Shown here: one piece after another, positions 38,589 to 60,727 of the stretch
How positions within the stretch are numbered: the first letter of the stretch is position 1
Layout: each line of letters opens with the position of its first letter
Source: Candidatus Obscuribacter phosphatis
GTDB taxonomy: Bacteria; Cyanobacteriota; Vampirovibrionia; Obscuribacterales; Obscuribacteraceae
Reading direction: 5' to 3'
Assembly: GCA_001899315.1 (NCBI GenBank)
Contig: MOYA01000003.1
Coordinates: 594,583 to 658,582, forward strand
DNA: 64,000 bases
Made by a program: the position numbers and the translations under genes
The notes under the pieces: model-generated
Told to the model about the DNA's origin: nothing
What the model saw: the letters and a program-made list of their open reading frames with translations, nothing else
Databases searched by the model: none

Positions 38589-39104
38589 TTGTCCTTCGAT
38601 TTTAATGAGCAAAGCGAACTGATAGAGCATCTGCCTAACTTTCGAGTAGTTAACGAAAAGCTTTCACGGGGCGGACAGCCCAGTCGTGAAGGCTTCTTAA
38701 AACTAAAGAGTTTCGGCGTCAAGACAGTGGTCAATTTGCGTGAAGACAGTCAGCAAGCCCTAGAAGAAGAAAAACTAGTGCAAGTGCTTGGCATGGACTA
38801 TGAAAGTATCCCCTTAAATCCTTTCTTCAAGCCGAAAGACAAAGACATAGAACAGTTTCTTAGATTGGCACTCACCCGCACGCCGCTTTTTGTGCACTGC
38901 CTGCACGGTCAAGACCGCACTGGTGCCACTGTTTGCATCTATCGCATGCTGGTTGACGGCTTAGACTATACAAGCGCGGTGCAAGAGATGCATTCACTGG
39001 GCTTTCATCGTGAGTTTGCCCTGTTGACAGAAATAGTAGAAGAATACAAGCATCGCCGTTTGCAAGATGTGCTCGCTCTGGACCTCTTCAGCAATGGCAT
39101 CTAA
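38589..39104 (+). CDS. protein tyrosine/dual-specificity phosphatase
   Basis: 171 aa with a TTG start: TTGTCCTTCG follows GAGG about 9 nt upstream, and the next in-frame ATG lies far inside the fold. The phosphatase P-loop is HCLHGQDRTG (Cys-x5-Arg), preceded by the general-acid region FKPKDKD and an N-terminal stretch LSRGGQPSREGFLKLKSFGVKTVVNLR typical of the DSP-like family (read in pieces). It dephosphorylates phosphotyrosine or other phosphorylated residues. Given the five Hanks kinases nearby, a role in reversing protein phosphorylation is plausible. The next gene overlaps its 3' end by 11 bp. Confidence 0.88.
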   Translation: MSFDFNEQSELIEHLPNFRVVNEKLSRGGQPSREGFLKLKSFGVKTVVNLREDSQQALEEEKLVQVLGMDYESIPLNPFFKPKDKDIEQFLRLALTRTPLFVHCLHGQDRTGATVCIYRMLVDGLDYTSAVQEMHSLGFHREFALLTEIVEEYKHRRLQDVLALDLFSNGI

Positions 39105-40032
39105 ATTTTCAGCTCTGGTAAAAGATAGGCGAAAAGTAGAGCTCAAAGAGCTTGCCCTGCCGAAACCAGGACCGCAAGAAGTGCTTGTCAGGGTGGCGCT
39201 GGCCGGGCTTTGCCGCACCGATATCTATGCAGCCCGGGGAGAGCTGTCAACCAAAGATGACTTGATCTTGGGACATGAGCTGGCAGGAACGGTCGAAGCG
39301 GTTGGCGCCTCCGTAGACGGACTGAAAGTGGGCACCCGGGTGACAGTCAATCCGGTTCTGCCTTGCAAGCTGTGCAAAGGTTGCCTGACCCGGGGCATTT
39401 GTCTGAACACCGGCTTTGTAGGCATAGATGCCGATGGCGGATTCGCCGAATTCGCCCTGCTTCCACAAGAGTCAATTATGACCCTAGACAACCGGGTCAG
39501 TTTTCTAGCCGCTGCCTATAGCGAACCTGTGGCAGCCTCACTAGCAGTTCTAAAAAGTGGCATTAGGCCAAGCGAAAATGGCGCTATATTTGGCAAAAAC
39601 CGTTTCTCTGAACTTTTGCAGTCTATTTTGACTATATACGGCTTTCCAGAGTTGCCGGTAATTGACACTTACCTAACTAAAGCAAACCAAACCGTGCCCG
39701 AAGGCGAGTTTGACTATGCTATCGAGACTTTTGCTTCAAGCGAAGTTATTGCCAAAATGTGTCGGGCGATCAGGCCTGGCGGCAAGCTCATTTTGAAAAG
39801 TAGGCAGCATGAACCCATACAGTTCAAGTTGGCTGATTTTCTCAAGCGCGAGCCGGTGATTTATGTGCTCAACTATGGCGATTTCGACGAAGCCCTCGAA
39901 TTACTATCGTCTGAAAAACTAAAGATAGAAAATTTAGTCGAGGGTCTTTATCCTCTCAAAGACTATGCCTCGGTTTTTGAAAAGGCCGGCTTCGCTGAAG
40001 CGAAAAAACTCTTTTTCGACCTTAGTCTTTAG
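39094..40032 (+). CDS. zinc-type medium-chain dehydrogenase, divergent
   Basis: 312 aa from the ATG at 39094, overlapping the phosphatase gene. The GroES-like domain has the catalytic zinc ligands Cys in GLCRTDIYAARG and His-Glu in LGHELAGTVEAVG. Four Cys in PCKLCKGCLTRGIC form the structural zinc site. The nucleotide-binding half is atypical: where GxGxxG is expected the sequence reads GAIFGKNRFSELL, so NAD(P) binding may be weak or altered. It ends about 30 residues short of the usual family length. Possible substrates are alcohols or polyols, unknown here. Translational overlap suggests coexpression with the phosphatase. Confidence 0.85.
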   Translation: MASKFSALVKDRRKVELKELALPKPGPQEVLVRVALAGLCRTDIYAARGELSTKDDLILGHELAGTVEAVGASVDGLKVGTRVTVNPVLPCKLCKGCLTRGICLNTGFVGIDADGGFAEFALLPQESIMTLDNRVSFLAAAYSEPVAASLAVLKSGIRPSENGAIFGKNRFSELLQSILTIYGFPELPVIDTYLTKANQTVPEGEFDYAIETFASSEVIAKMCRAIRPGGKLILKSRQHEPIQFKLADFLKREPVIYVLNYGDFDEALELLSSEKLKIENLVEGLYPLKDYASVFEKAGFAEAKKLFFDLSL

Positions 40033-47080: not shown

Positions 47081-49249
47081 ATGTCTACAGGCTCACAAGA
47101 AGCAGCCCGCACCAGCGGCGGACAAGGAGAATTCGGACCTGGTGCCTTGATTGGGGGCTCTTACCGCCTGATCAACTTTATCGGTGCCGGCGCCATGGGC
47201 GACGTCTACAAAGCTAGACACGAGATGATGCCCCGTGAATACGCCCTCAAGATTCTCAACGAAAATCAGGTCACCGAAAATGCTTGGCGCCGCTTTCAAC
47301 TAGAGGCGCAGGCTATCGCCAAACTGAATCACAAGAGCATAGTATCGATTCACAACTTTGGCATTCACAACGGTAACAAGCCCTTTTATGTGATGGAACT
47401 GCTCGAAGGCGAATCGCTTTTCGACAGACTGAACCGCTGCGAGTTTCTCACAGTGGCAGAGGCTTTGCCAATCTTTATCGAGCTTTGCGATGCCTTCGGC
47501 TATGCCCACAAACAAGGCATTATTCACCGCGATATCAAGCCACAAAACATTATCTTGCTCAACAAGCCAGAACTGGGCAGTGCCATCAGAATAGTAGATT
47601 TTGGCATTGCCAAACTAACCCAAACCACCGATCCCCAAAATCAAAATCTAACCCGCATGGGTGAAGTATTTGGATCGCCTTTCTACATGAGCCCTGAACA
47701 GACCATGGGTCAGAGGGTCGATAGTCGTTCCGACATTTATTCACTTGGCTGCACTCTATACGAAACCCTTGTCTCTATGCCGCCTTTGAGAGGTCGCAAT
47801 TCAACCGAGACCATGATCTTGCATCAGACCAAGATACCGCCCATGCTAAAAGAAGCATCCGACGCCCAAACCTTTTCAGACGGCATCGAATATCTGGTGG
47901 CAAAAATGCTAGCCAAGGCCCCTGCTGATCGTTATCAAACTATGGAAGCAGTGAAGCATGATCTCGAACTTTTGCAGCAGGGCAAAGACCTAAACACTGT
48001 CAGTTATTATGCCGCGCCCTCGCCGCGGCGCAGCACTCAAAAAATAGAAGCACACGTGGAAGAACGCGGTGGCTTGCGCGAAGAACTGAGCGAGTCGAGT
48101 CAGTACACTGTGCCGCCGAGTACAAGTAAGAATATTGCGCCTTTTATCGCTGGTGTAATTTTCATTCTTGTTGTTGGAGGCGGAGCAGGAGTCTTTGTAT
48201 TTCAAAACAGCAGTAAGGAAAGCAAAACTTTAAGAGCCGATGTAACTAGACAACCGGAAACCAAAGGCAGTACTGATGCGGGCATCGCAGAAGTTGATGG
48301 CAACGGAAAAATTGAAGATGCGTTTGGTTCAGACAAAGCCGCATTTATCGATACCTCAGATCCTAACTGCTATCTAAATAAACCATATAAGTACTCGAGG
48401 CTAAATAAGCTCCCCGGCAAGCCTCCTACCGTCGACTTTAACTTTCCAAAAGAAATTGAACTGGGAACTATCTACGGCAAGCAACAAAGCCAAGGGGCTG
48501 AAGGAGTTATTCCCTATATAGCTAAAGGGAAAGTAAGTATTCCAAAGGATTCATTTCGATACTTGGCCCCAAGTCCTAGTCTTCTCAAGTACACGGGTTA
48601 TCTGCAGGGGTTCCAAAAAGGAGATCTAATTGGCATTTCCCTCATCGACAAGCAAATAGATTCAGAGAGCATAAAAAAGTTATCTGTAGTGCCAGGAATC
48701 AAAAATATCTACTTATACGAATATGACGAAATACCTGGAAACACTCTAAAAAATCTTAGGCATCTGAAAAATCTAGAGGTTATTGATATTTTCCAATCTG
48801 CCTTCGATTTCTCAGGATTTGACAAAGCGAGTGTCCCACTTAGTTTGCAAGCTATAAGAATTAACTCCATAAGCAGAGAATTCAACATTAATCTGAAAGA
48901 CCTTCAAGATTATCCAATCACCGAATTAACTTTGAACTTTCATACCAGTCCTCAACAGATTGAAGATATACGCTATCTGAAGTCGCTTACGACCTTGCGA
49001 ATTGGCGGGAAAAGTCGCCCTATTGGAGAAAAAGAGCTTGATGCGATATGCAGTTTGCAAAAACTCGAAAGACTGGAACTCTGGGACTGCACTCTCCCAG
49101 AAGATGCCGAAATGAAACTATTCATGCTAAAGAAACTGAGGTCCCTAGTTTTGCCCTTCAATAAAGAAGGCAGCCTGACCAAGAAGAGACTAGAAGCTAA
49201 AAATTTCAATGCAAGAATTTTTCATCCGCATGACCCAAAATCAGAGTAA
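47081..49249 (+). CDS. Ser/Thr kinase with membrane helix and LRR-like tail
   Basis: 722 aa. Kinase domain about 25-295: glycine loop IGAGAMGDVYK, ALKILN, HRDIKPQNIILL, RIVDFGIAKL and GSPFYMSPEQT, complete. A linker of about 50 residues precedes one membrane helix (about 348-370; FIAGVIFILVVGGGAGVFVF). The external part (about 375-722) has Leu-rich segments with Asn (LKNLRHLKNLEVIDIFQSAF, LKSLTTLRIGGK, LQKLERLELWDCTL read in pieces), LRR-like. The external half is more AT-rich and uses different codons from the kinase half, hinting at a mosaic gene. Third member of the receptor kinase family in this window; likely cotranscribed with the lipoprotein. Confidence 0.92.
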   Translation: MSTGSQEAARTSGGQGEFGPGALIGGSYRLINFIGAGAMGDVYKARHEMMPREYALKILNENQVTENAWRRFQLEAQAIAKLNHKSIVSIHNFGIHNGNKPFYVMELLEGESLFDRLNRCEFLTVAEALPIFIELCDAFGYAHKQGIIHRDIKPQNIILLNKPELGSAIRIVDFGIAKLTQTTDPQNQNLTRMGEVFGSPFYMSPEQTMGQRVDSRSDIYSLGCTLYETLVSMPPLRGRNSTETMILHQTKIPPMLKEASDAQTFSDGIEYLVAKMLAKAPADRYQTMEAVKHDLELLQQGKDLNTVSYYAAPSPRRSTQKIEAHVEERGGLREELSESSQYTVPPSTSKNIAPFIAGVIFILVVGGGAGVFVFQNSSKESKTLRADVTRQPETKGSTDAGIAEVDGNGKIEDAFGSDKAAFIDTSDPNCYLNKPYKYSRLNKLPGKPPTVDFNFPKEIELGTIYGKQQSQGAEGVIPYIAKGKVSIPKDSFRYLAPSPSLLKYTGYLQGFQKGDLIGISLIDKQIDSESIKKLSVVPGIKNIYLYEYDEIPGNTLKNLRHLKNLEVIDIFQSAFDFSGFDKASVPLSLQAIRINSISREFNINLKDLQDYPITELTLNFHTSPQQIEDIRYLKSLTTLRIGGKSRPIGEKELDAICSLQKLERLELWDCTLPEDAEMKLFMLKKLRSLVLPFNKEGSLTKKRLEAKNFNARIFHPHDPKSE

Positions 49250-49395: not shown

Positions 49396-49791
49396 ATGGT
49401 AACTCTGGAAGACGCCCGCCGCATTATTGCCGCCGCCGAAAAGAAAGCTGCCGAAATCGGTCAACCAATGAATATCGCCGTGGCTGACTGCGGCGGCAAC
49501 CTGGTCGCCCATGTGCGCATGGACGGAGCATGGCTTGGCAGCATCGATATCTCAATTAAGAAAGCCTATACGTCGAGAGCCTTCGACATCTCCACCAAAG
49601 ATCTAGCTGCCCATAGCCAATCGGGTGGACAATTCTTTGGCATCAACGCCTCAAATGACGGCAAGATCATGATTTTTGCCGGCGGAGTGCCGCTCAAAAA
49701 AGATGGCAAAGTAGTCGGCGCTGTGGGTGTTTCAGGTGGAAGCGGCGACCAAGACCACGCCGTAGCAGAAGCCGGCGCAGCCGCCTACTAA
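49396..49791 (+). CDS. GlcG/HbpS-like (DUF336) protein
   Basis: 131 aa with AGAGAGGA ahead of the ATG. Whole-length match to the GlcG/HbpS family: VTLEDARRIIAAAEKKAAEIG at the start, NIAVADCGGNLVAHVRMDGAWLG, the KAYTSRAF helix, and the glycine-rich GAVGVSGGSGDQDHAVAEAG near the end (read in pieces). Members bind haem or act in small-molecule pathways such as glycolate or diol use; here its position immediately ahead of the amidotransferase gene (4 bp gap) suggests a role in the same pathway. No signal peptide. Confidence 0.9.
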   Translation: MVTLEDARRIIAAAEKKAAEIGQPMNIAVADCGGNLVAHVRMDGAWLGSIDISIKKAYTSRAFDISTKDLAAHSQSGGQFFGINASNDGKIMIFAGGVPLKKDGKVVGAVGVSGGSGDQDHAVAEAGAAAY

Positions 49792-49795
49792 GCGC

Positions 49796-51745
49796 ATGTG
49801 CGGCATATTCGCCGTCATCGATCTCAGTCCCGAACCTGATATAGGCTCGGCTAGAGCCATACATGGCGCGGAGGTGCTTAGTGCCCTTCGCGCCATGCGC
49901 CACAGAGGACCGGATGGTCTGAAATACTGGCTTTCAGACGATGGCAAGGTAGCACTCGGTCACGCGCGGCTGGCTATAATTGCCGTAGCAGACGGCGACC
50001 AGCCCTTAAGCTCAAGCGATGACTCAATCAAACTTGTTCTCAACGGCGAACTCTACAATCATAGACAAGAATTAGCCCGGCTGAAAGCTCGCGGACACCG
50101 CCCCAAAACCAGCTCTGACAGCGAACTGGCCATCTATCACTATGTAGAATCAGGTTTGCACTTTTTCAACGAGCTGAGGGGAGAGTTTGCCGGCTGTCTC
50201 TACGACTCAAGCAAAAACAGGCTACTTGCCTTTCGTGACCGCTTTGGTATAAAGCCGCTCTGCTACACGGTCTTCAACAATAAGCTCTATATTGCCTCTG
50301 AAGCAAAAGCCCTCTTTGCCGCCGGAGTCCCTGCGGCAATCGATGAAGAGAGCGTCTTCCATACGCTCAACATGCAATATACGCTGCCGAATCGCACAAT
50401 CTTCGCCAATATCAAGCAATTAGAGCCGGGTTCGGCTCTCATGGTCGAAAACGGCACAATCAGACACTTTAGCTATTTCGACCTCAACTATCCACCGGCG
50501 CAAACACCCAAGGCTTTGACCCCAAAAGAAGAGCAAGCGCTTATCCAAGAGTTTAAAAACTTACTGGAAGAAGCAGTCAAACTGCGCCTGGAAGCCGAGT
50601 TTCCGGTTGTCTGTCATCTTTCAGGTGGTCTTGATTCGGCATCGGTATTGGCACTGGCAGCCAAACATAGCCAAGAGCCGATGAACGCCTTTACTGTTTC
50701 TTTTGCCGAAGAAGGCTATGACGAACTTGCTATAGCCAAAGAAATGGCGCAGCACTGCGGAGCCGCACTACATACGGTGCCAGTTTCGAACCTCGATCTA
50801 ATAACCAACCTAGAAGACGCCTGCTACCTATCTGAAGGACTGGCGATAAATGGACATCTCAGCGCCAAGCACTTGCTCAATAAAGCCATTCACCAGGCTG
50901 GTTTTCGCGTCTCGCTCACCGGCGAAGGCTCAGACGAAGTACTACTAGGCTATCCACATTTGCGCAGCGATTTGCTGCTTAGCAATGAGAACAATCAAGA
51001 ACAAGAGACAAAAGAAAGACTGGCAAAACTACATGCTGAAAACCCAATGTCGCAGGGCATTATGCTAGCGCAAGGAGACAGCCTTTCACTTAAGGCAATA
51101 GAGCAAGCCCTGGGCTTCCTGCCTGCTTATCTTAAGGCTAAAGGTACTATGGGTTATAAACTTCTAGCCATGGCCGAACCGACTTTTCTAGAGCAGTTCA
51201 ATAAAGCAGACGCCTATAGAGACCTGATCGAGCACGTTCCCCTGGGTCAACTGCGCGGCAAGGCGCCGCTCTATCAATCGCTCTACTTGTGGAGCAAGAC
51301 CGCACTGGCAGGCTATATTTTGCGCACCCTGGGAGACGGCGTCGAGATGGGACAATCACTCGAGGGTCGACTGCCTTTTCTAGACAACAAACTCTTCGAC
51401 TTTCTGCGCGAAGTGCCCATATCGATGAAAATCAAAGGTGAAACCGAAAAATTTATTCTCAAAGAAGCCTTGAAAAGTGAGCTTACCGAAACCATCTACA
51501 AGCGCCACAAGCATCCCTTTGTCGCCCCGCCGGTGAGCCGCTTTGCCGATCAAATGACCATGAATTTCATCAAAGAACGCATTTCAGACCATAGCTTCAA
51601 ATCGTTGAAGTTCTTTGATCAAAAGAAACTATTGCAATTGATAGCCAATCTCGACAGCCTCTCAAACGAAGAAAGAGCGGCTCAAGACCCGGTCTTCATG
51701 ATGGCGCTTTCTTATCAAGCCATCTATTCGAGGTTCAGTTTATGA
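49796..51745 (+). CDS. asparagine synthase-like glutamine amidotransferase
   Basis: 649 aa, about the AsnB length or slightly longer. Class II glutaminase domain: nucleophile Cys2 (MCGIFAVID), RHRGPDG, NGELYNH and SDSELAIYHYV. Synthetase domain: PP-loop HLSGGLDSASVLAL (about 275), the GEGSDEVLLGYPH loop, and the C-terminal LEGRLPFLDNKL. The enzyme adenylates a carboxylate and amidates it with glutamine-derived ammonia. The classical product is asparagine, but homologues in biosynthetic clusters form other amides. The next gene overlaps by 4 bp (ATGA) and encodes a methyltransferase, and an A-T-R enzyme follows, so a secondary-metabolite role is likely. Confidence 0.92.
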   Translation: MCGIFAVIDLSPEPDIGSARAIHGAEVLSALRAMRHRGPDGLKYWLSDDGKVALGHARLAIIAVADGDQPLSSSDDSIKLVLNGELYNHRQELARLKARGHRPKTSSDSELAIYHYVESGLHFFNELRGEFAGCLYDSSKNRLLAFRDRFGIKPLCYTVFNNKLYIASEAKALFAAGVPAAIDEESVFHTLNMQYTLPNRTIFANIKQLEPGSALMVENGTIRHFSYFDLNYPPAQTPKALTPKEEQALIQEFKNLLEEAVKLRLEAEFPVVCHLSGGLDSASVLALAAKHSQEPMNAFTVSFAEEGYDELAIAKEMAQHCGAALHTVPVSNLDLITNLEDACYLSEGLAINGHLSAKHLLNKAIHQAGFRVSLTGEGSDEVLLGYPHLRSDLLLSNENNQEQETKERLAKLHAENPMSQGIMLAQGDSLSLKAIEQALGFLPAYLKAKGTMGYKLLAMAEPTFLEQFNKADAYRDLIEHVPLGQLRGKAPLYQSLYLWSKTALAGYILRTLGDGVEMGQSLEGRLPFLDNKLFDFLREVPISMKIKGETEKFILKEALKSELTETIYKRHKHPFVAPPVSRFADQMTMNFIKERISDHSFKSLKFFDQKKLLQLIANLDSLSNEERAAQDPVFMMALSYQAIYSRFSL

Positions 51746-52551
51746 AAAACCCGAAGGCTAACTCCGACGCCTCGAATTCTTCTGATAAATGGTGGCTTTC
51801 TTTCTACCAAGACACCCCATTTATCACTTATCTTGACACCACCCATGGTGAAGACCAAGAAGACATTCTAAATTTCCTTTACAATCATTGTTTGCTGGAT
51901 CGCGGCAAAAAACAGTCAATTAGTATATTTGATCAGTGCTGCGGAATAGCTTCCATTAGCTTGCCGCTTGCCAAAGAAGGCTTCAAAGTCTACGGCGCCG
52001 ATATCTGCCCCCAGTTCATTCAAGAAGCAGAAAGACGAGCCGAGAAGCTTAAACTGAAAGACAATCTGAGCCTTCAATTAGCCGACGCTACAGTTTATCT
52101 TCCGCCCGAGAAAGTAGATTTGACCTTAAATCTCTATACCAGCTTCGGCTATGCAGACCATCAAACCAATTTGAAGATGCTGGAAAAAGCCCATCAATCG
52201 CTGAAATCAGAGGGCATTTTCCTTCTAGACTTCCCTAATTTCCATTTAGTTCTGTCGCACTTCAGAAAGCATATTGTCAGAGAGATTGGGCCAAGTGATG
52301 CGCCGATCACTGTTATAAGAGAGGCGCAATTGTCGCCCTTAGAAGGCAGGCTCAAACAAACCTGGACCTTTATCGAAAGTGACGGCAAACGCACAAGACA
52401 AGAAAGCAGCCTGGCTATCTATCTACCCGACAGACTACTGGCAATGCTCAAAGAAGTGGGCTTCAAAGAATTCACCGTATTTGGTGACTTCAAAACAGCC
52501 GCCGCCTACCAAACTGATTCTCCCCGCTTGATTATTCAAGCAAGGGCATAA
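51742..52551 (+). CDS. SAM-dependent methyltransferase
   Basis: 269 aa. Class I Rossmann methyltransferase: motif I SIFDQCCGIASISLPLA (about 55-70; Cys-Cys-Gly in place of the common Gly-x-Gly), acidic strand-2 end VYGADIC, motif for adenine ADATVYLP, motif IV VDLTLNLYTSFGY and post-motif GIFLLDFPN. A C-terminal barrel-like region (RLKQTWTFIESDGKRTRQESS in pieces) matches small-molecule methyltransferases. It overlaps the amidotransferase stop by 4 bp and the NRPS-like gene begins 2 bp after its stop. It probably methylates the pathway product or an intermediate. Confidence 0.9.
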   Translation: MKNPKANSDASNSSDKWWLSFYQDTPFITYLDTTHGEDQEDILNFLYNHCLLDRGKKQSISIFDQCCGIASISLPLAKEGFKVYGADICPQFIQEAERRAEKLKLKDNLSLQLADATVYLPPEKVDLTLNLYTSFGYADHQTNLKMLEKAHQSLKSEGIFLLDFPNFHLVLSHFRKHIVREIGPSDAPITVIREAQLSPLEGRLKQTWTFIESDGKRTRQESSLAIYLPDRLLAMLKEVGFKEFTVFGDFKTAAAYQTDSPRLIIQARA

Positions 52552-52552
52552 A

Positions 52553-55500
52553 ATGCAGTTCAAAAGCTTTATCGAAGAGTACAAGAAAATCGCTGAACAG
52601 TTCGGTGAAAGAGCAGCGGTCATCGAAGAAAGCAGCGCGATAAGCCATGCCACTCTCTATAACGAGGCTATGGCTTTAGCCACTGCCGCAAAGCCGATAG
52701 GCGGCAAACTAGTAGTACTGGCTCTGCCCAAATCATACGACTATATTAAGGCTCTGCTTGCAGTCTGGATGGCAGGCAAAGCCTTTACCCCCCTTGATGT
52801 GAATATGCCAGAGACTCGCATGAAAGCCATACTCAGCGAGGTAGAGCAGTTCAACGGTGAGCAGACTCTTGTAATTACAACAAAAGAAAATTTAGCCAAA
52901 CTAGAAAATTGTGCGAACCAATGCCTCTTTCTAACAGATTTAGACCGAATTGAGACCGACAGCCAATTGGTTGGCCCTTCTACAATCGATGCCGAAGACC
53001 TTGCCTATGTAATATTCACCTCAGGCTCAACCGGCACTCCCAAAGGCGTTCTGGTCGAACACAAAGGTTTAGTCAATCTCTTGCGGGAACAAATAAATGC
53101 CTTCCGCCTCAATCATCTCAGTCGTTCGCTCTTCTATCTTTCAATTAGCTTTGACGCCTCAATATCTGATTTAGGCACAGCCCTGCTTGCCGGAGCGGCG
53201 CTGGTAATCTTACCGCCTCAAAAACTCAGCCCCGAAAAGCTAAACGAAACTTTCACCAACTATGGTATCACCTACATAGACATTCCGCCCAGTGTGCTAA
53301 AACTGCTTAACCCGCAAGAAAAGCCTGACTGCCTGCAATCTATGGTGATCGGAGGCGAGGTCTGCCCGAGCGACATTGTGCGACAGTGGGCTCGGGCTCT
53401 TCACCTTGTTTGTGTCTACGGACCCACCGAAGCAACCATCTGCACAAGCTATACTGTCTGCGATGAAAATTGGGACAAGCCGCTGATAGGCAAGCCCATA
53501 GCCAATATCAAATATCATTTGCGAGACCCGAATGATCAAAGCAAAGAAATAACCTTAGAAACGAACGAAAAGCAAGAAGCCGAGCTCTATATCAGTGGTC
53601 TTGGACTAGCCCGCGGCTATCTATTTAGAGAGAAACTGACCGCCGAGCGCTTTATTATTGATTCAACCGGCGAGCGTCTCTATGCCACAAGAGATAGAGT
53701 AATTGCCCTAAAAGACGGCAACTTCGTCTTTTGCGGTCGCATAGACAGACAGTTCAAATTGAAGGGCCTGCTTATTGAGCCGGAAGAAATCGAAGCGGCG
53801 CTAATGGAAAACAGCCTGGTAAAGAGAGCAGCGGTGGGCAAACGGCGGCTTGAAACTAGAGACAGCGAGATTCTGGTTGCCTATGTAGAACCAACTAAAG
53901 ACGCCGGTGATTGCGCGCATTCGCTGCGTCAATTTCTATCGCAACGCCTGCCCAAGTGGATGCTACCCCATCGTTTTCTCTTTGTAGAAAAGATGCCTCA
54001 GACAGCCTCAGGTAAAGTTGATCTGGCTGCGCTGGAAAAGCTTGCAATCAATAACCGCGCTCAAGAAAATAACCGCGCCCAAGAACAAGAGCAGCTAGAG
54101 CCAAAGCAAGAGAAGAGTGCCAAGAGAACTGCCAAGCAAACTGCCAAGAAAATTGGACTGACCGAGCTGGTCAAGGACTGCGCCATAGAAATATTAGGTT
54201 GTGACTGCTTTGGCGATGATGAAAACTTCTTCGAAATGGGTCTAGATTCGCTAAGTACAGTCGAATTGGCGGCGGCTGTATGTCGAGTCGGCTTGGCTGT
54301 CTCGCCTGAGACTCTATTCAAAAATCCTAGCGTCAATCAACTAGTGCGGCATTTGCAGCACAGCCCCCAAGCAGGCGCCAAAGACAATCAAGCAAACGGC
54401 GAGAGCACCAAAGTCTTGCGCGCTCTCCTTGAGCAAGAACCGCTGCGGTCGCAGATTGCCTCCATAGAGAGTCTTTTGAATTCCTCTTTGGGCGAAAGAG
54501 GCGGCGAGCGCTCAGAAAGGGGTTACAAAACCCTTATCACCGGCGCCGCGGGCTTCCTTGGCACATACTTACTGGCAGAGTTACTCCTTGAAAGCGATGC
54601 AAAATTTATCGCCTTGATTAGAGCCAAAAACAAAGCAGAAGCATTAGACAAGCTGCTGCGCAATGCCGAGCGCTACTCATCTCAATATCGCCAACTATTT
54701 GCCGACGCTAACGAAACTGGCAAGTTGGAGATTTTGCTAGGAGACATCAAGGATGAGAGACTGGGTCTCGATACATCCACGTACAGCGCCCTCTCTCAAA
54801 ATATCGGCCGCGTCATTCATTTAGCGGCACAGGTAAATATGGCTGCATCGCGCCAAGAACTTATGGATACAAATGTAATCGGCACCCTCAATATAGCCCG
54901 CTTAGCTGCCACCACCCCAAGCAAAGAACTGCACTATTGTTCAACTTTGTCGGTTTTTGTGGCAACTGATAGAAACAAGGGCAGTCTTCTCGAAAGCGAC
55001 GATTTAAGCAGTGAAACCACAGTCTATGGAGGCTATGCCCAGACAAAATGGCTGGCGGAAGTAATTTTGCGCAGGCTGGGCAACTGCCGATTGCCAAAGG
55101 CAAGTACAGGGCAAGAGCCAATCGGTGATACAAAAACGCCCAAGGGTCAGCTAGACCTGACAGTCTATCGCCTCGGGCTAATCACCGGCGACCAAAACAA
55201 TGCCATGGCACCGGCAAATGACTTTCTCGGTCTTTTTATCAAAGGACTGCACAATGCCGGTATCGACGAAGCGCACACCGGACAGGCGGCAGCCGCCATA
55301 TCTATGGACATAAGCCCGGTTGACTATGTGGCCAAAACCATGGCTGAACTCATTAACTGGCGCAATAAAGATCCGCAAGCAGAAAGGAAAGCTGACTTTG
55401 GCGCGAAAAGGAAGCCAGCCTTGCCTCTTCATCTCCAACCCAAAACAACCAAAACTTTCCATATTGCTAACAACACTTCATTAAGCTTGCAGAGACTTGC

Positions 55501-55798
55501 CCTTTTGATTGCCGAGGCGAGGGCAGGCAAGCACTGCAATAGTAAAAACGGTCAAGAGAAAGCAACCGGTGTGCCGAGGGCAGATCTAGACTTCAAGGCT
55601 ATTGCCGCAGCCAAGCTAGCGATTTGCCGACTTTATTCGCCTGAAGAATTCCAAATGCTGCGCACGATGGATCTCTTTCAAGCCACCGGTGTAGAGTTCG
55701 ACATGCACAACACGCGGCAAGCCTTACCCCACCTAAGCATTCCCAAAATATCTGACCGCTTGCTGAAAAAATACATTGCGGCGGCACTAGGCGGGTAA
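52553..55798 (+). CDS. NRPS-like A-T-R enzyme (adenylation, carrier, thioester reductase)
   Basis: 1081 aa, no condensation domain. Adenylation domain about 10-500: phosphate loop YVIFTSGSTGTPKG (about 152-165), A4 SISFDASISD, A5 VYGPTEATIC, A7 GERLYATRDRV, A10 TASGKVDLAAL with its Lys. By hand alignment to PheA the specificity positions read D-A-S-D-V-G-V-I-C-K; the leading Asp fits an alpha-amino acid, but I cannot name the substrate. Carrier domain: DENFFEMGLDSLSTVEL with the phosphopantetheine Ser at about 565. Reductase domain: TLITGAAGFLGTYLL (about 661) and YAQTK (about 827), the short-chain dehydrogenase Tyr-Lys pair. Such enzymes load an amino acid and release it reductively as an aldehyde or alcohol. 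Confidence 0.93.
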   Translation: MQFKSFIEEYKKIAEQFGERAAVIEESSAISHATLYNEAMALATAAKPIGGKLVVLALPKSYDYIKALLAVWMAGKAFTPLDVNMPETRMKAILSEVEQFNGEQTLVITTKENLAKLENCANQCLFLTDLDRIETDSQLVGPSTIDAEDLAYVIFTSGSTGTPKGVLVEHKGLVNLLREQINAFRLNHLSRSLFYLSISFDASISDLGTALLAGAALVILPPQKLSPEKLNETFTNYGITYIDIPPSVLKLLNPQEKPDCLQSMVIGGEVCPSDIVRQWARALHLVCVYGPTEATICTSYTVCDENWDKPLIGKPIANIKYHLRDPNDQSKEITLETNEKQEAELYISGLGLARGYLFREKLTAERFIIDSTGERLYATRDRVIALKDGNFVFCGRIDRQFKLKGLLIEPEEIEAALMENSLVKRAAVGKRRLETRDSEILVAYVEPTKDAGDCAHSLRQFLSQRLPKWMLPHRFLFVEKMPQTASGKVDLAALEKLAINNRAQENNRAQEQEQLEPKQEKSAKRTAKQTAKKIGLTELVKDCAIEILGCDCFGDDENFFEMGLDSLSTVELAAAVCRVGLAVSPETLFKNPSVNQLVRHLQHSPQAGAKDNQANGESTKVLRALLEQEPLRSQIASIESLLNSSLGERGGERSERGYKTLITGAAGFLGTYLLAELLLESDAKFIALIRAKNKAEALDKLLRNAERYSSQYRQLFADANETGKLEILLGDIKDERLGLDTSTYSALSQNIGRVIHLAAQVNMAASRQELMDTNVIGTLNIARLAATTPSKELHYCSTLSVFVATDRNKGSLLESDDLSSETTVYGGYAQTKWLAEVILRRLGNCRLPKASTGQEPIGDTKTPKGQLDLTVYRLGLITGDQNNAMAPANDFLGLFIKGLHNAGIDEAHTGQAAAAISMDISPVDYVAKTMAELINWRNKDPQAERKADFGAKRKPALPLHLQPKTTKTFHIANNTSLSLQRLALLIAEARAGKHCNSKNGQEKATGVPRADLDFKAIAAAKLAICRLYSPEEFQMLRTMDLFQATGVEFDMHNTRQALPHLSIPKISDRLLKKYIAAALGG

Positions 55799-55828
55799 AT
55801 AGAGCTTGGGTCGAGGCGAAAGTGATGC

Positions 55829-57355
55829 GTGGCGATTATGCGCAATGAACTTACTACTGAGAACAGGCAAGAAGCTGAGAAAGCGCTCTTCACTCTTTCA
55901 TATGGCACGGTGCCAACCAGCACAAAACTTGCTTTGGGTTGCTTGGTTCCTTTCTTTCTTATTCCTGTAGCCGTTGCCATTTACAAGACAGTTATTGCCG
56001 GCAGCAATCCCAAGTTAGTGCTCTTCTTTATTCTAAGCACCTTACCCTACTTAGCTTTTGTCCTTTTTATCTTGCTGAAAACATCCAAAGCAAAGATTGC
56101 CTGCAAAGAAAATGCCATAAGCTTCTCGCCGCAATGGAAAGCCAGCTTGCTTGGTCGCTTGGAGAGAGACTGGCATGATGTTCATTCAGTGCAAATCGTG
56201 GCGGACTCTAGCAATATAAAAAGCCTGCTCGCCCAGCTAAAGGGCGAACCAGGCTTACTAGCAAAGCTAAAAGTTGGACTCAGTCCAGATTCCAGCGCAC
56301 AGCTTTGCATCGACTTCAAGTCTGGCGGCAGCGCCTTTGTCAGACTTTGCTTGCTCACCAAACAAGAACTGGAAGATCTCATCTTTCAATTAGACAAGCA
56401 TGTAGACCCTTCGCGCTTCTCACAAGATTATATTCGCCTGCAAAAAGCACTCTACCTAGAAGACGCAGGCGCCCAACACCTCTCTTCAATCTGGGACGAG
56501 GACCTCAATCTGCGCTATATCTCGACCAACTATGTGCCACTGCAGGCGGGGGCACAACTGGCAAACTATACAGTCTTGATGGCTTTAGCCACAGGCGGCA
56601 TGTCGGCAGTCTATTTAGCAAAAGACAAGCAGCGCAAAGTAGTGCTGAAAGAGCTGGTGCTCAGCCATTTAACTAGCGAAGAACAGGCGAAAGCCAAAGA
56701 GCTTTTTGACCGCGAGGCAAGTTTATTGCTCAAAATCAAGCATGACCAGATAGCCACAGTCCTAGACAAAATCACAGAGAACGGCAGACACTATCTAGTT
56801 TTGGAATACATTTCAGGACTAACCCTGCGCCAACACATAAAACAAAATGGCAAAGAAAAACCAAGTGCTGCAGTCAAATTCGGGCTGCAGATGGCTAATA
56901 TTCTTCAGTATCTGCACTCGCAAGTGCCTCCTATTTTGCATAGAGACTTCACCCCCGACAATCTAATCATCAAAGATGACGGCTCCCTTTGCCTCATCGA
57001 CTTTGGCGCCGCCAACGAATACGTAGGCAGAGTCACCGGCACGATGATAGGCAAACAATGTTACATCGCCCCCGAACAGCTGCAAGGCAAAGCCAGCCCG
57101 GCAAGCGATGTCTATGCCATGGGCGCCACTCTCTTCTTTGTCTTGAGTGGTGAAGACCCCCTTCCACTTAGTGCTTCCAAGCCCGAACTAGATACACCCG
57201 AACAAGATACACCCGAACAAGATACACCCGAACAAGATGCAAAAAAACAGCAACTTGCCGAACTGATAGAAAGACTAACTGCCTTTGCAGAAGAAGAGCG
57301 GGTACAGACCAGCAATGAAGCTTTCGAAGCACTGAGAGACCTGAGGTCGCTATAG
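55829..57355 (+). CDS. membrane-anchored Ser/Thr kinase with HRDFTPDN loop (copy 1)
   Basis: 508 aa from a GTG start (ATG at 55838 is an alternative). Two membrane helices (about 32-54 and 62-80) precede a strand-rich region of about 100 residues (FSPQWKASLLGRLERDWHDV; LCIDFKSGGSAFVRL in pieces) that resembles a bacterial PH-like domain. The kinase domain (about 250-470) has YTVLMALATGGMSAVYLAK, VVLKELVL, catalytic loop HRDFTPDNLII (Thr in place of the usual Lys), LIDFGAANEY and CYIAPEQLQG. After the kinase is an insertion of four TPEQD repeats. It lies 30 bp after the NRPS-like gene in the same direction and 4 bp before a paralogue. Confidence 0.9.
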   Translation: MAIMRNELTTENRQEAEKALFTLSYGTVPTSTKLALGCLVPFFLIPVAVAIYKTVIAGSNPKLVLFFILSTLPYLAFVLFILLKTSKAKIACKENAISFSPQWKASLLGRLERDWHDVHSVQIVADSSNIKSLLAQLKGEPGLLAKLKVGLSPDSSAQLCIDFKSGGSAFVRLCLLTKQELEDLIFQLDKHVDPSRFSQDYIRLQKALYLEDAGAQHLSSIWDEDLNLRYISTNYVPLQAGAQLANYTVLMALATGGMSAVYLAKDKQRKVVLKELVLSHLTSEEQAKAKELFDREASLLLKIKHDQIATVLDKITENGRHYLVLEYISGLTLRQHIKQNGKEKPSAAVKFGLQMANILQYLHSQVPPILHRDFTPDNLIIKDDGSLCLIDFGAANEYVGRVTGTMIGKQCYIAPEQLQGKASPASDVYAMGATLFFVLSGEDPLPLSASKPELDTPEQDTPEQDTPEQDAKKQQLAELIERLTAFAEEERVQTSNEAFEALRDLRSL

Positions 57356-57359
57356 ATAG

Positions 57360-59063
57360 ATGTTCAAGAAGAATGATGATGCCACCAATAAGCTAGCGCT
57401 GCCCGCCAAACCAGATGGTGCGAATGAACTATACATACCGTATAGCACCACCAGAGCCATGATTCGCGACAGGCTGGATGGAAGCAAAAATCAAATCACT
57501 CTCAAGAGAGGGCTTATCTTTCTAGCCATGCTACTTTGCTATGTGGCCTTGAGCCAAGCCCCAAGAATACTTCCGCACGCCCTTGCTCTCAAGGTGATCC
57601 CCCTTCTTTATATATTTCTCTACGCTATTCTTTTCTTCGTCACTATGCCGATAATTCTTGCCCCCACCAATCTGCAAATTGGCAGACAGGGGCTGCGGCT
57701 GCATTGGCTAAGCACCCTTGGATGCTATTCCAGCCCCTGGATTAAGCTGGACTGCATTAAATATGTGGATTGCTCGAATATGTCTCGCGGCTTATACAGC
57801 TCAAAAGCACTCGATATTTATCTTGACCTGAGCGATTTAGCTAAGTCGGAACAGCTGAAAGCTCGGTTCTTCACTCTGCCGATCACGAGCCTGCACCACT
57901 TCAAAGAATTGAAGTTGCGCCTTGACCTGCAAGCCATCACCTACGAAGAAGACGTGAAGAGCCTGGTCAACGCGATGGTTCAACTCTTGCCTGCCGATAA
58001 GCTCGATGAAAGAGCCCTCAGTCTCACAGAAAATTTCGAAGATAGCACTTTTACCAAACTCTGGCTTGAGAACTTTGACAGTAAGAACAGCGCCGGCGAA
58101 AACTGCCTGCAAGAAGGTGACCTAGCGGCAGAAAGATACAGAGTGATCGAGCGCCTACAAGGGGGAGGGCAGGCGGCGGTCTATCTGGCTAATGACACCG
58201 CCGACGGTGAAGGCAAGCAGGTCGTGTTGAAAGAATTTGTCTTGCCGGCTAAAGGCGGCATCGAAATCAGGCGCCGCGCCCTAGAAAATGTCGAACACGA
58301 AGCCAAAATATTGAAGAAGCTAGAAGCACCAAACATAGTCAAACTGCTAGATTGCTTTGCCACTGCCCAGAGAGCTTATCTAGTTCTTGAGCATATCAAA
58401 GGCGCTTCCTTAAGAGCAATAGTCAAACGAGAAGGACCTTTGACCGTTGAAGAAGTGTCTATCTTGGCCGATAAGATGTGCGACATTCTCAATTATCTCC
58501 ACAACCAGACACCACCAGTAGTGCATCGCGATTTCACTCCCGACAACTTAATGTTCTCAGGGGAAGGGCAGCTTTACCTTATCGACTTTAACGTGGCCGA
58601 AACACTAGAGTCTAACCTCACTCGCACCATGGTCGGCAAACACAGCTATGTCCCCCCGGAGCAGTTTAGAGGCAAAGCCACCACTCAAAGTGACATCTAT
58701 TCTATGGGTGCGACACTCTACTTTCTTTTGACCGGCAGAGATCCTCAACCGATATCGGTATCTAATCCGTTTGCCGAAGAGAAAAAATCAAAACAAATTG
58801 ATGAAGTGGCAAGCCACATCCAAGTTACGCCCATAAGTAGCAATTCGCAAGCCAGCGAAGGCGAAACCGAACTCACAAGCACTAAAGGGCAGGGGCGCGA
58901 AGCAAACGAGACAGCCAATACAAACGAGACAGCCAAAGCAAACGAGACAGCCAAGCAAGCCTTGGGACAGATAATTGCTAAAGCCACAGCCCTAGAAACC
59001 AAGCAGCGATATCAAGACTGCCATCAACTAAAGAAAGATCTAGCGCCGCTCATCGGCGCCTGA
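57360..59063 (+). CDS. membrane-anchored Ser/Thr kinase with HRDFTPDN loop (copy 2)
   Basis: 567 aa, paralogue of the preceding kinase. Two membrane helices (about 50-72 and 78-100) are followed by a similar strand-rich domain (LQIGRQGLRLHWLSTL; YSSKALDIYLDLS). The kinase domain (about 260-480) has LQGGGQAAVYLAND, VVLKEFVLP, HRDFTPDNLMF, LIDFNVAETL (Asn where Gly is usual in DFG, so DFN) and SYVPPEQFRG. The C-terminal part contains a Glu/Thr/Asn-rich low-complexity stretch with TANE repeats, then a final helix typical of Pkn C-lobes. The DFN variant may weaken catalysis; the pair could act as a kinase/pseudokinase complex. Probably the last gene of the operon. Confidence 0.9.
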   Translation: MFKKNDDATNKLALPAKPDGANELYIPYSTTRAMIRDRLDGSKNQITLKRGLIFLAMLLCYVALSQAPRILPHALALKVIPLLYIFLYAILFFVTMPIILAPTNLQIGRQGLRLHWLSTLGCYSSPWIKLDCIKYVDCSNMSRGLYSSKALDIYLDLSDLAKSEQLKARFFTLPITSLHHFKELKLRLDLQAITYEEDVKSLVNAMVQLLPADKLDERALSLTENFEDSTFTKLWLENFDSKNSAGENCLQEGDLAAERYRVIERLQGGGQAAVYLANDTADGEGKQVVLKEFVLPAKGGIEIRRRALENVEHEAKILKKLEAPNIVKLLDCFATAQRAYLVLEHIKGASLRAIVKREGPLTVEEVSILADKMCDILNYLHNQTPPVVHRDFTPDNLMFSGEGQLYLIDFNVAETLESNLTRTMVGKHSYVPPEQFRGKATTQSDIYSMGATLYFLLTGRDPQPISVSNPFAEEKKSKQIDEVASHIQVTPISSNSQASEGETELTSTKGQGREANETANTNETAKANETAKQALGQIIAKATALETKQRYQDCHQLKKDLAPLIGA

Positions 59064-59137: not shown

Positions 59138-60640
59138 CTAAGCCGGCATGCGGGAAAGGTCTTGCAGCGCCTGCACCAATTGATCGACATCATCCTTTGT
59201 ATTGAAAGAGCTGAAGCTAACACGAGCCAGTCCGGTTTTCTCGCTGTTGAGAACTTTGTGTGCCGAAACAGCGCAGTGCAAGCCCGCCCGAATAGCGATA
59301 CCGTACCCGGTATCAAGCCAATCAGCCACTCGGTCAGCGGTGAGACCTCGATAACTGAAGACCACGACAGGAAGGTATTGGGGCTCGCGGCTCATTTCAG
59401 AAGTCATTCTACGTTTTTGCAAAGAAGAAGAAGAAGAAGAAGAAAATTTATCTACCGCAGCTGAGCTATTGGCTGCCGCCGCTGCAGTTAAACCAGTAGC
59501 TGGCGAGGCTGAGGTCGGCGAGGCGCTGGATTGACTAAATTGACTAAATTGACCAGATTGAACGGATTGGCTGGATTGACCGGACAGCTTAGCAGCCAGA
59601 GAAGCACCAGAAAGAGCCGAACCAGAAATAGCTGAACCGGCTTGCGCTTCACCCGGCATAAGACCAGCTGCGGTGAGACTGGCAACCAATCTATCGCGAT
59701 CGACCCGACGCCCCTTAATTTCAATGGCATCTATGTCAATTGTCTTGAACAAGAAATAGTCGACCAAAGATCTAGCCCTAGCCAGCATGGACTCTGGACC
59801 GTGGTCGAGCACATAACGGACGCCTTCAGCAAGACCAGCGGCAAGTTGTACGCCATGGGTGCCGGGTTCGAGCCGGTCCGGCAGGAAAGTCGGCATGGCA
59901 AGACTGTCTGACCGAGAGCCAGTGCCACCACAATAGGGAGGGTCAAGCTCAAAATGCTGACTACGCACATATAGAATGCCGATACCTGGCGGTCCGTAGA
60001 GACCCTTGTGCCCTGATGCCGCATAATAGGTCACTCCAGTCAAATGGCTCAAGTCATCGCGCACAAAGCCAGCACTCTGAGCGGCATCAACCAGCAAGGG
60101 TATATCAGCATCTTCAAGCATGCGCGAAACAGTCTCTAGATCGAGAAGCGCCCCAGTGACATTGCTAGCGCGAGTGAAGACAGCCAGAGCCGGCTTCGGA
60201 CTTTCCGAACTGATGCGCCGCAGGGCTGCGAGATCGACCAAGTTGCCGTCGGGTCCAGCCGGCACCTGTACCACCTCGATACCGTCGCGGCTTTCATGAT
60301 AAGCAAGACTGCGCATAACGGCATTGTGCTCAAAGCTTGTGACCAGCACCCGATCACCGGCACGCAGCTTTTGAGCGCCAATCAGACCGGCTAGAACCAA
60401 GTTTATACTCTGCGTGCAGCCGGCAGTAAAAACCAGGCGATGTCCGTCAGCCACACCCAAGAAATCAGCCAGGCATTCGCGCGCTTCAAATATCTGACGC
60501 GAAGAGTTATAAGCAAGGCGATGGGCGCCGCGACCGGGGTTTCCAGCACTTCTCAGTACCGAGTCGCATACTTTATAGACCGATTCAGGCTTGGGGAAAG
60601 TGGTAGAGGCGTTGTCAAAGTAAATGATTTTTTCGGACAT
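59138..60640 (-). CDS. cysteine desulfurase-like aminotransferase with low-complexity insertion
   Basis: About 500 aa from MSEKIIYFDN; in-frame ATGs up to 60706 are possible. Class V PLP fold: FDNASTTFPKPESV, PGRGAHRLAYNSSRQ, FTAGCTQSINLVL, VDAAQSAG, and the PLP Lys in AASGHKGLYGPPGIG. The C-terminal part carries RAGLHCAVSAHKVL with the persulfide Cys and ARVSFSSFNTKDDV. Thus a SufS/IscS-type or related cysteine lyase. Unusually, about 80 residues of Ser, Gln and Ala repeats (SQSVQSGQFSQFSQS and a run of eight Ser) interrupt the small domain between VASLTAAGLMPG and YLPVVVFSYRG. Typical enzymes are about 400 aa. No Suf/Isc partners are adjacent. Confidence 0.9.
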   Translation of the reverse strand: MSEKIIYFDNASTTFPKPESVYKVCDSVLRSAGNPGRGAHRLAYNSSRQIFEARECLADFLGVADGHRLVFTAGCTQSINLVLAGLIGAQKLRAGDRVLVTSFEHNAVMRSLAYHESRDGIEVVQVPAGPDGNLVDLAALRRISSESPKPALAVFTRASNVTGALLDLETVSRMLEDADIPLLVDAAQSAGFVRDDLSHLTGVTYYAASGHKGLYGPPGIGILYVRSQHFELDPPYCGGTGSRSDSLAMPTFLPDRLEPGTHGVQLAAGLAEGVRYVLDHGPESMLARARSLVDYFLFKTIDIDAIEIKGRRVDRDRLVASLTAAGLMPGEAQAGSAISGSALSGASLAAKLSGQSSQSVQSGQFSQFSQSSASPTSASPATGLTAAAAANSSAAVDKFSSSSSSSLQKRRMTSEMSREPQYLPVVVFSYRGLTADRVADWLDTGYGIAIRAGLHCAVSAHKVLNSEKTGLARVSFSSFNTKDDVDQLVQALQDLSRMPA

Positions 60641-60727
60641 TGTCATAGATCTGTGAATGTGGGCAGCTGCGCTTTTAGCCATGCTAGCATTCTTTAGTGT
60701 CGGCAATACAAAGATATTTGGCGAAAA

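Follow-up and report, generated by a model that had tools for sequence, protein, structure and literature searches.

A conserved gene set around an A-T-R carboxylate reductase in Obscuribacterales suggests an apparently undescribed small-molecule pathway

Introduction

The window analyzed here is a stretch of 64,000 nucleotides from the genome of Candidatus Obscuribacter phosphatis. Six of its open reading frames, at 49396–59063, lie on the + strand with an intergenic spacing, from 5′ to 3′, of 4 bp, a 4-bp overlap (ATGA), 1 bp, 30 bp and 4 bp. An earlier note, made from the sequence alone, described this run as a compact biosynthetic operon built around an NRPS-like A-T-R enzyme and including two membrane kinases. 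The locus raises two questions: which of these genes form a functional set, and what might such a set produce?

Results

Gene content of the run

The run contains the following genes and domains:

49396–49791, + strand: HbpS/GlcG-like protein (PF03928, 154 bits)
49796–51745, + strand: AsnB-type glutamine-dependent amidotransferase/synthetase (AsnB), core gene (TIGR01536, motifs, synteny)
51742–52551, + strand: class I SAM methyltransferase (MT), core gene (PF13649, synteny)
52553–55798, + strand: A-T-R NRPS-like carboxylate reductase, 1081 residues, core gene (PF00501, PF13193, PF00550, PF07993)
52589–54016, + strand: adenylation domain of the A-T-R enzyme, code DASDVGVICK
54167–54355, + strand: thiolation (carrier) domain of the A-T-R enzyme, with Ser566
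54530–55777, + strand: reductase domain of the A-T-R enzyme, with motifs TGAAGFLG and YAQTK
55829–57355, + strand: membrane Ser/Thr kinase K1, a genus-specific neighbour (PF00069, two TM segments)
57360–59063, + strand: membrane Ser/Thr kinase K2, with DFN rather than DFG, a genus-specific neighbour (PF00069, two TM segments)

The coordinates and a check of the sequence bear out the description of six genes in one direction with overlaps or gaps of 30 bp or less, and Pfam and NCBIfam scans uphold the names given to them (GlcG-like, AsnB-like, methyltransferase, A-T-R and two kinases). An upstream kinase gene (47081–49249) is set apart from the run by a gap of 146 bp. At the 3′ end, the run faces a convergent gene on the minus strand (59138–60706) that encodes a cysteine-desulfurase-like protein. 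This protein is closest to TIGR01977, and a long insertion rich in Ser, Ala and Gln splits its C-terminal part. The promoter scan gave no promoter-like match on the + strand, and the terminator scan yielded nothing decisive.

The conserved unit in relatives

Orthologous A-T-R genes are present in 11 other genomes, nine of the same family (one of them, G027, with a truncated gene) and two of another class of the phylum. In all 11, AsnB adjoins the A-T-R gene. Finding this neighbourhood in different genera and in a second class means that chance alone does not account for the core. The order ADH-AsnB-MT-2OG/Fe oxygenase-A-T-R, where ADH is an alcohol dehydrogenase gene, is the same in three family genomes (G006, G008 and G016) and in the two genomes of the other class (G062 and G073), and is thus likely to represent the ancestral operon. 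The oxygenase gene sits between MT and A-T-R in several genomes, and MT orthologues lie either between AsnB and the oxygenase or A-T-R gene, or beside a NadR-type gene. The conserved unit further includes a NadR-type kinase gene, in most cases together with a tandem gene for a NadD-like adenylyltransferase. The kinase gene is located directly 5′ of ADH in G006, G008 and G016, and a single run of two NadD genes, kinase, MT and oxygenase is found in G025, with a matching arrangement in G013; these placements indicate that the NadR/NadD genes and the oxygenase belong to the set of the family. The compact biosynthetic operon that the earlier note saw around A-T-R, AsnB and the methyltransferase is supported by synteny as well as by the domain scans.

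The set is not complete in every genome. In two draft genomes parts of it are missing: neither the NadR-type nor the tandem NadD genes are present in G001, and in G027 only AsnB and a portion of the A-T-R gene are visible. No oxygenase match was found in G033. Conversely, G010 has the oxygenase without an A-T-R gene; there (L136:6602–8216) a member of the same oxygenase family adjoins a different methyltransferase.

Displaced members in the genus of the window

The unit is dispersed in the genus of the window, which is represented by three genomes: G000 (the genome of the window), G001 and G002. Two further genes of the window concern us here:

38589–39104, + strand: DSP-type phosphatase (PF22741), overlapping the start of ADH
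39067–40032, + strand: MDR zinc alcohol dehydrogenase (ADH), pathway member (PF08240, synteny, tree, model)

ADH is displaced 9.4 kb upstream of the run, and its true start could instead be the in-frame ATG near 39094. In eight relatives the gene immediately 5′ of AsnB is the orthologue of ADH. The model of ADH shows a complete MDR fold (pLDDT 91); the zinc ligands are invariant and the usual GxGxxG loop is replaced by GxNRFS or similar. G001 and G002 have the phosphatase gene in the same place, immediately 5′ of ADH; the link is limited to the genus.

The 2OG/Fe(II) oxygenase is encoded on another contig (G000:C2:32437–33132). Its HxD...H...R residues (HRD...H...R) are invariant, and its model (pLDDT 88) has 2OG/Fe oxygenases as the best PDB matches, at TM-scores of only about 0.4–0.5. 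The NadR-type kinase gene (G000:C3:663939) and the tandem NadD-like gene (665088) begin about 5 and 7 kb, respectively, past the end of the window and fall within the stretch 5–8 kb beyond it. In this genus the pathway genes are distributed across two contigs and a distance of more than 30 kb, so the set is not one transcript there. The six-gene boundary drawn previously thus missed four likely members: ADH, inside the window, and the oxygenase, the NadR-type kinase and the tandem NadD-like gene, outside it.

Across the family, the genes tend to occur together. In a set of 36 family genomes, 8 of the 10 that have the A-T-R gene also have the NadR-type kinase, as against 0 of the 26 that lack it; for the oxygenase the figures are 8 of 10 and 1 of 26. 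ADH was found in 7/7 genomes with and 0/16 without A-T-R among those searched; at 44% identity or more it occurs only in genomes that have A-T-R (Fisher p about 1e-5 to 1e-6 for these co-occurrences, uncorrected for shared ancestry). The gene trees of AsnB and A-T-R have 7 of 8 splits in common, those of ADH and A-T-R 6 of 8. The ADH tree is largely congruent although ADH is unlinked from A-T-R in the genus of the window.

The scattering of the genes and the long branch of the genus A-T-R in the tree could also mean that the pathway is decaying or rewired here, its remaining genes having changed or reduced function. We consider this unlikely: none of the three genomes shows a loss in the motifs tested or in the A-domain code, and the A-T-R frames are open, with no stops.

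The A-T-R enzyme and its specificity code

The A-T-R enzyme consists of AMP-binding, PP-binding and NAD_binding_4 domains. The Pfam/NCBIfam scan detected no condensation domain, confirming this part of the earlier description. The A3 motif (TSGSTG), the carrier serine (Ser566) and the reductase motifs TGxxGFLG, YCSTLS and YxxxK (YAQTK) are all intact. Against TIGR01746 the enzyme scores 176 bits, below the cut-off of 213, and its G016 orthologue 249. The same architecture without a condensation domain is found in NRPS-like A-T-R carboxylate reductases, such as fungal CARs (e.g. PnlA; PMC9605436) and Lys2-type aminoadipate reductases, and reductive release of an aldehyde would be expected here as well. 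Unlike these enzymes, the A domain of the window is of the bacterial amino-acid type. It is not Lys2 (L-aminoadipate-semialdehyde dehydrogenase), as the TIGR03443 score of 218 is far below the cut-off of 1030. The best NCBIfam match is the myxochelin synthetase MxcG (383 bits over residues 7–935), with which it would have reductive release in common. A full MxcG can be rejected against an equivalog cut-off of 2300; MxcG is longer, and the window enzyme lacks the condensation domain. No siderophore genes were noticed, and a plasmid search gave only ordinary NRPS matches at about 30–33% identity.

The ten specificity residues were mapped to GrsA numbering through a motif alignment. All 11 complete A-T-R enzymes, from two classes, have the code DASD(V/I)GV(I/V)CK, and this invariance makes one fixed substrate likely. 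Different codes are found in the stand-alone A-T-R enzymes of other phylum members; since the genes of these enzymes (L123–L128) also have none of the AsnB, MT, ADH and oxygenase genes of the set beside them, the enzymes were rejected as members of the same pathway.

The Tyr-type code of glycopeptide synthetases, DASTLGAICK, has positions in common with the A-T-R code, and Ser239 and Cys331 presumably resemble tyrosine-type pockets. Arg-type codes coincide with it at Asp235, Ala236, Asp278, Val/Ile299, Gly301, Val/Ile330 and Lys517, and the Gln/Glu code DAQDLGVVDK also has positions in common; Asp278, Gly301 and the hydrophobic residues 299 and 330 would suit Arg-, Lys- or Gln-type pockets (PMC12283262). 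As the partial likeness extends to Arg-, Gln/Glu- and Tyr-type codes alike, we do not assign a firm amino acid. The known Asp/Asn code, DLTKVGHVGK (PMC12283262), differs. Judged from the code, the enzymes that have it in common probably take a single substrate, which is neither Asn nor Asp.

AsnB, MT and the GlcG-like gene

AsnB contains a GATase and an Asn_synthase domain and scores 362 bits against TIGR01536, above the equivalog cut-off of 267. Cys2, SGGLDS (SGGxDS) and the synthetase motifs are conserved. This score would fit the ordinary asparagine synthetase of the cell, placed beside the A-T-R gene by accident. Such a role is very improbable: the genome has a second Asn_synthase match (C1:1373119) that outscores the window copy, 341 versus 237 bits, the adjacency of AsnB and A-T-R is kept across genera and in another class, and their trees are congruent. 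The second copy argues against a housekeeping function and makes a specialized role of the window AsnB more likely. Class B asparagine synthetases and hydroxyamidotransferases of the TsnB9 kind have the same GATase and synthetase domains and the same Cys2, and the top PDB match of AsnB, 7ylz, is of the TsnB9 kind. Unlike these enzymes, AsnB here is tied to A-T-R, MT, ADH and oxygenase genes. Homology does not fix the substrates of either AsnB or MT.

The GlcG-like gene, counted in the earlier note as a member of the operon, is found at the A-T-R locus only in G000 and G002, two of the three genomes of the genus, and is absent from every homologous locus outside it. The HbpS/GlcG-like protein is probably accessory or incidental.

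The membrane kinases

K1 and K2 have hydrophobic N-terminal segments at residues 34–52 and 63–81, and 46–64 and 82–100, respectively. The earlier note treated all six genes as one functional unit in which the kinases could couple production to a signal or be targets of the product. The tight spacing is consistent with this, and each of the three genomes of the genus has K1 and K2 on the 3′ side of A-T-R; the displaced oxygenase, too, adjoins a kinase gene, a different one, in all of them. Against it, K1 and K2 are found beside A-T-R nowhere else: homologous loci outside the genus have no kinase. The genome of the window contains about 95 kinase-domain (Pkinase) hits, with at least six further tandem K1/K2-like pairs beside unrelated genes. 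On the basis of synteny and this base rate we do not count the kinases as core members, and a unit of all six genes appears doubtful. Their place beside A-T-R, kept within the genus, is weak evidence for a role. The A-T-R gene does travel with the amidotransferase, and beyond the genus it does not travel with the kinases; synteny separating it from either had been named in advance as grounds to abandon the operon.

The tandem pairs appear to be a repeated two-kinase module, with about seven pairs in this one genome (L151–L156 on contig C1 of G000, and 55829–59063 in the window). Most of their catalytic loops read HRDx(T/S)P(D/E)N instead of HRDxKPxN, and some have DFN, DFA or DFE in place of DFG. 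The Ser/Thr kinase gene that follows the displaced oxygenase (L133:7198–10559, L138:2366–5579, L139:8190–11207) encodes Sel1 repeats in G000.

NadR/NadD-type genes

The NadR-type kinase has an AAA_28 kinase domain with an invariant P-loop, as does bifunctional NadR (ribosylnicotinamide kinase/NMN adenylyltransferase). The HxGH adenylyltransferase motif was compared between L158 and L159 (other class) and L046, L132 and L157 (Obscuribacterales). It is intact in G062 and G073; unlike bifunctional NadR, the Obscuribacterales copies long enough to span its position have lost it, and a tandem NadD-like gene is nearby. It is possible, judging by these motifs, that the function was handed over to that gene.

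These genes suggest that the product or a key intermediate could be a nucleotide, with a riboside being phosphorylated by the NadR-type kinase and adenylylated by the NadD-like protein to form an NAD-like or NAD-derived compound. In keeping with this, the NadR-type kinase follows the A-T-R gene through the family, the NadD×2-kinase-MT-oxygenase run occurs in G025 with its counterpart in G013, and genes for an NAD-kinase-like and a radical SAM protein lie downstream in G000 and G002. NAD is, moreover, a known building block, from which altemicidin is made (PMC11610977). In that alkaloid pathway, as here, NAD-type enzymes are found near tailoring enzymes; unlike it, the present set has A-T-R chemistry, and no SbzP-like PLP enzyme was seen in the inspected neighbourhoods. 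Other observations speak against a nucleotide: the loci inspected showed no enzyme for ribosylation, G012 has a tandem NadD paralogue but no A-T-R, and in outgroup genomes the NadR homologue, with an intact-looking adenylyltransferase motif, is unlinked, as plain salvage would have it. The outgroup homologue may serve ordinary NAD salvage. Taken together, we regard a nucleotide product as a tentative and rather improbable proposal.

Beyond the tandem NadD-like gene, on its downstream side, the NAD-kinase-like gene overlaps the radical SAM gene (L130:11704–13748). This pair is kept in G002 at 94–97% identity and was not found in the other inspected loci. In the genus of the window, the NadR-type kinase ORF also carries an N-terminal Se/S-carrier-like domain, PF11823 (L130:7911–9458, L131:6682–8106), and the cysteine-desulfurase-like gene at 59138–60706 lies near it, which may point to a link with sulfur or selenium.

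Discussion

We propose, with a probability of roughly 0.68, that ADH, AsnB, MT, the 2OG/Fe(II) oxygenase and A-T-R form a dedicated small-molecule pathway, with the NadR-type kinase and usually the tandem NadD-like protein as further members. What we observed is gene content, active-site motifs, gene order, co-occurrence, congruent trees and the A-domain code. Points against the proposal are the gaps in the set in G001, G027 and G033, the oxygenase that G010 has without A-T-R, the dispersal in the genus of the window and the unlinked NadR homologue of the outgroup. On the evidence of the genomes compared, ADH, the oxygenase and the NadR-type kinase probably lie inside the set, and the protein kinases and GlcG outside it.

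The substrate, product and order of steps that we infer would be as follows. The A domain would adenylate one amino acid, whose side chain is probably elongated polar, cationic or phenolic. The carrier arm would pass it to the R domain for release as an aldehyde (or alcohol) with NADPH, and ADH would set the aldehyde/alcohol state. The oxygenase would hydroxylate, AsnB would convert a carboxylate to an amide with glutamine nitrogen, and MT would methylate. The NadR-type kinase could phosphorylate a late intermediate or supply NMN/NAD. The predicted product is a small amino aldehyde or alcohol that is hydroxylated, amidated and methylated and may also be phosphorylated or nucleotidylated. In the genus of the window the unit would have been split, the kinases and GlcG being later neighbours. 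A more specific version, in which seven genes of these non-photosynthetic relatives of cyanobacteria couple the reductive activation of an amino acid by A-T-R to NAD-type enzymes, is speculative and we think it unlikely; its product would be a nucleotide derived from an amino aldehyde, an analogue of NAD or an undescribed kind of NAD-derived natural product.

The literature searched contained no published cluster matching the ADH-AsnB-MT-oxygenase-A-T-R set and no biosynthetic clusters from Obscuribacterales. Likewise, the earlier note knew of no pathway with the six-gene combination, and our search matched none. The conserved biosynthetic gene set is real and apparently undescribed. Small, conserved across two classes and marked by a single invariant code, it is a tractable target for heterologous expression. 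Its host is an uncultured, non-photosynthetic member of the cyanobacterial phylum, and the same enzymes are found together in distant relatives. Should the NAD-type enzymes act in this route, the set would join the few pathways known to use NAD as a building block or to mimic it.
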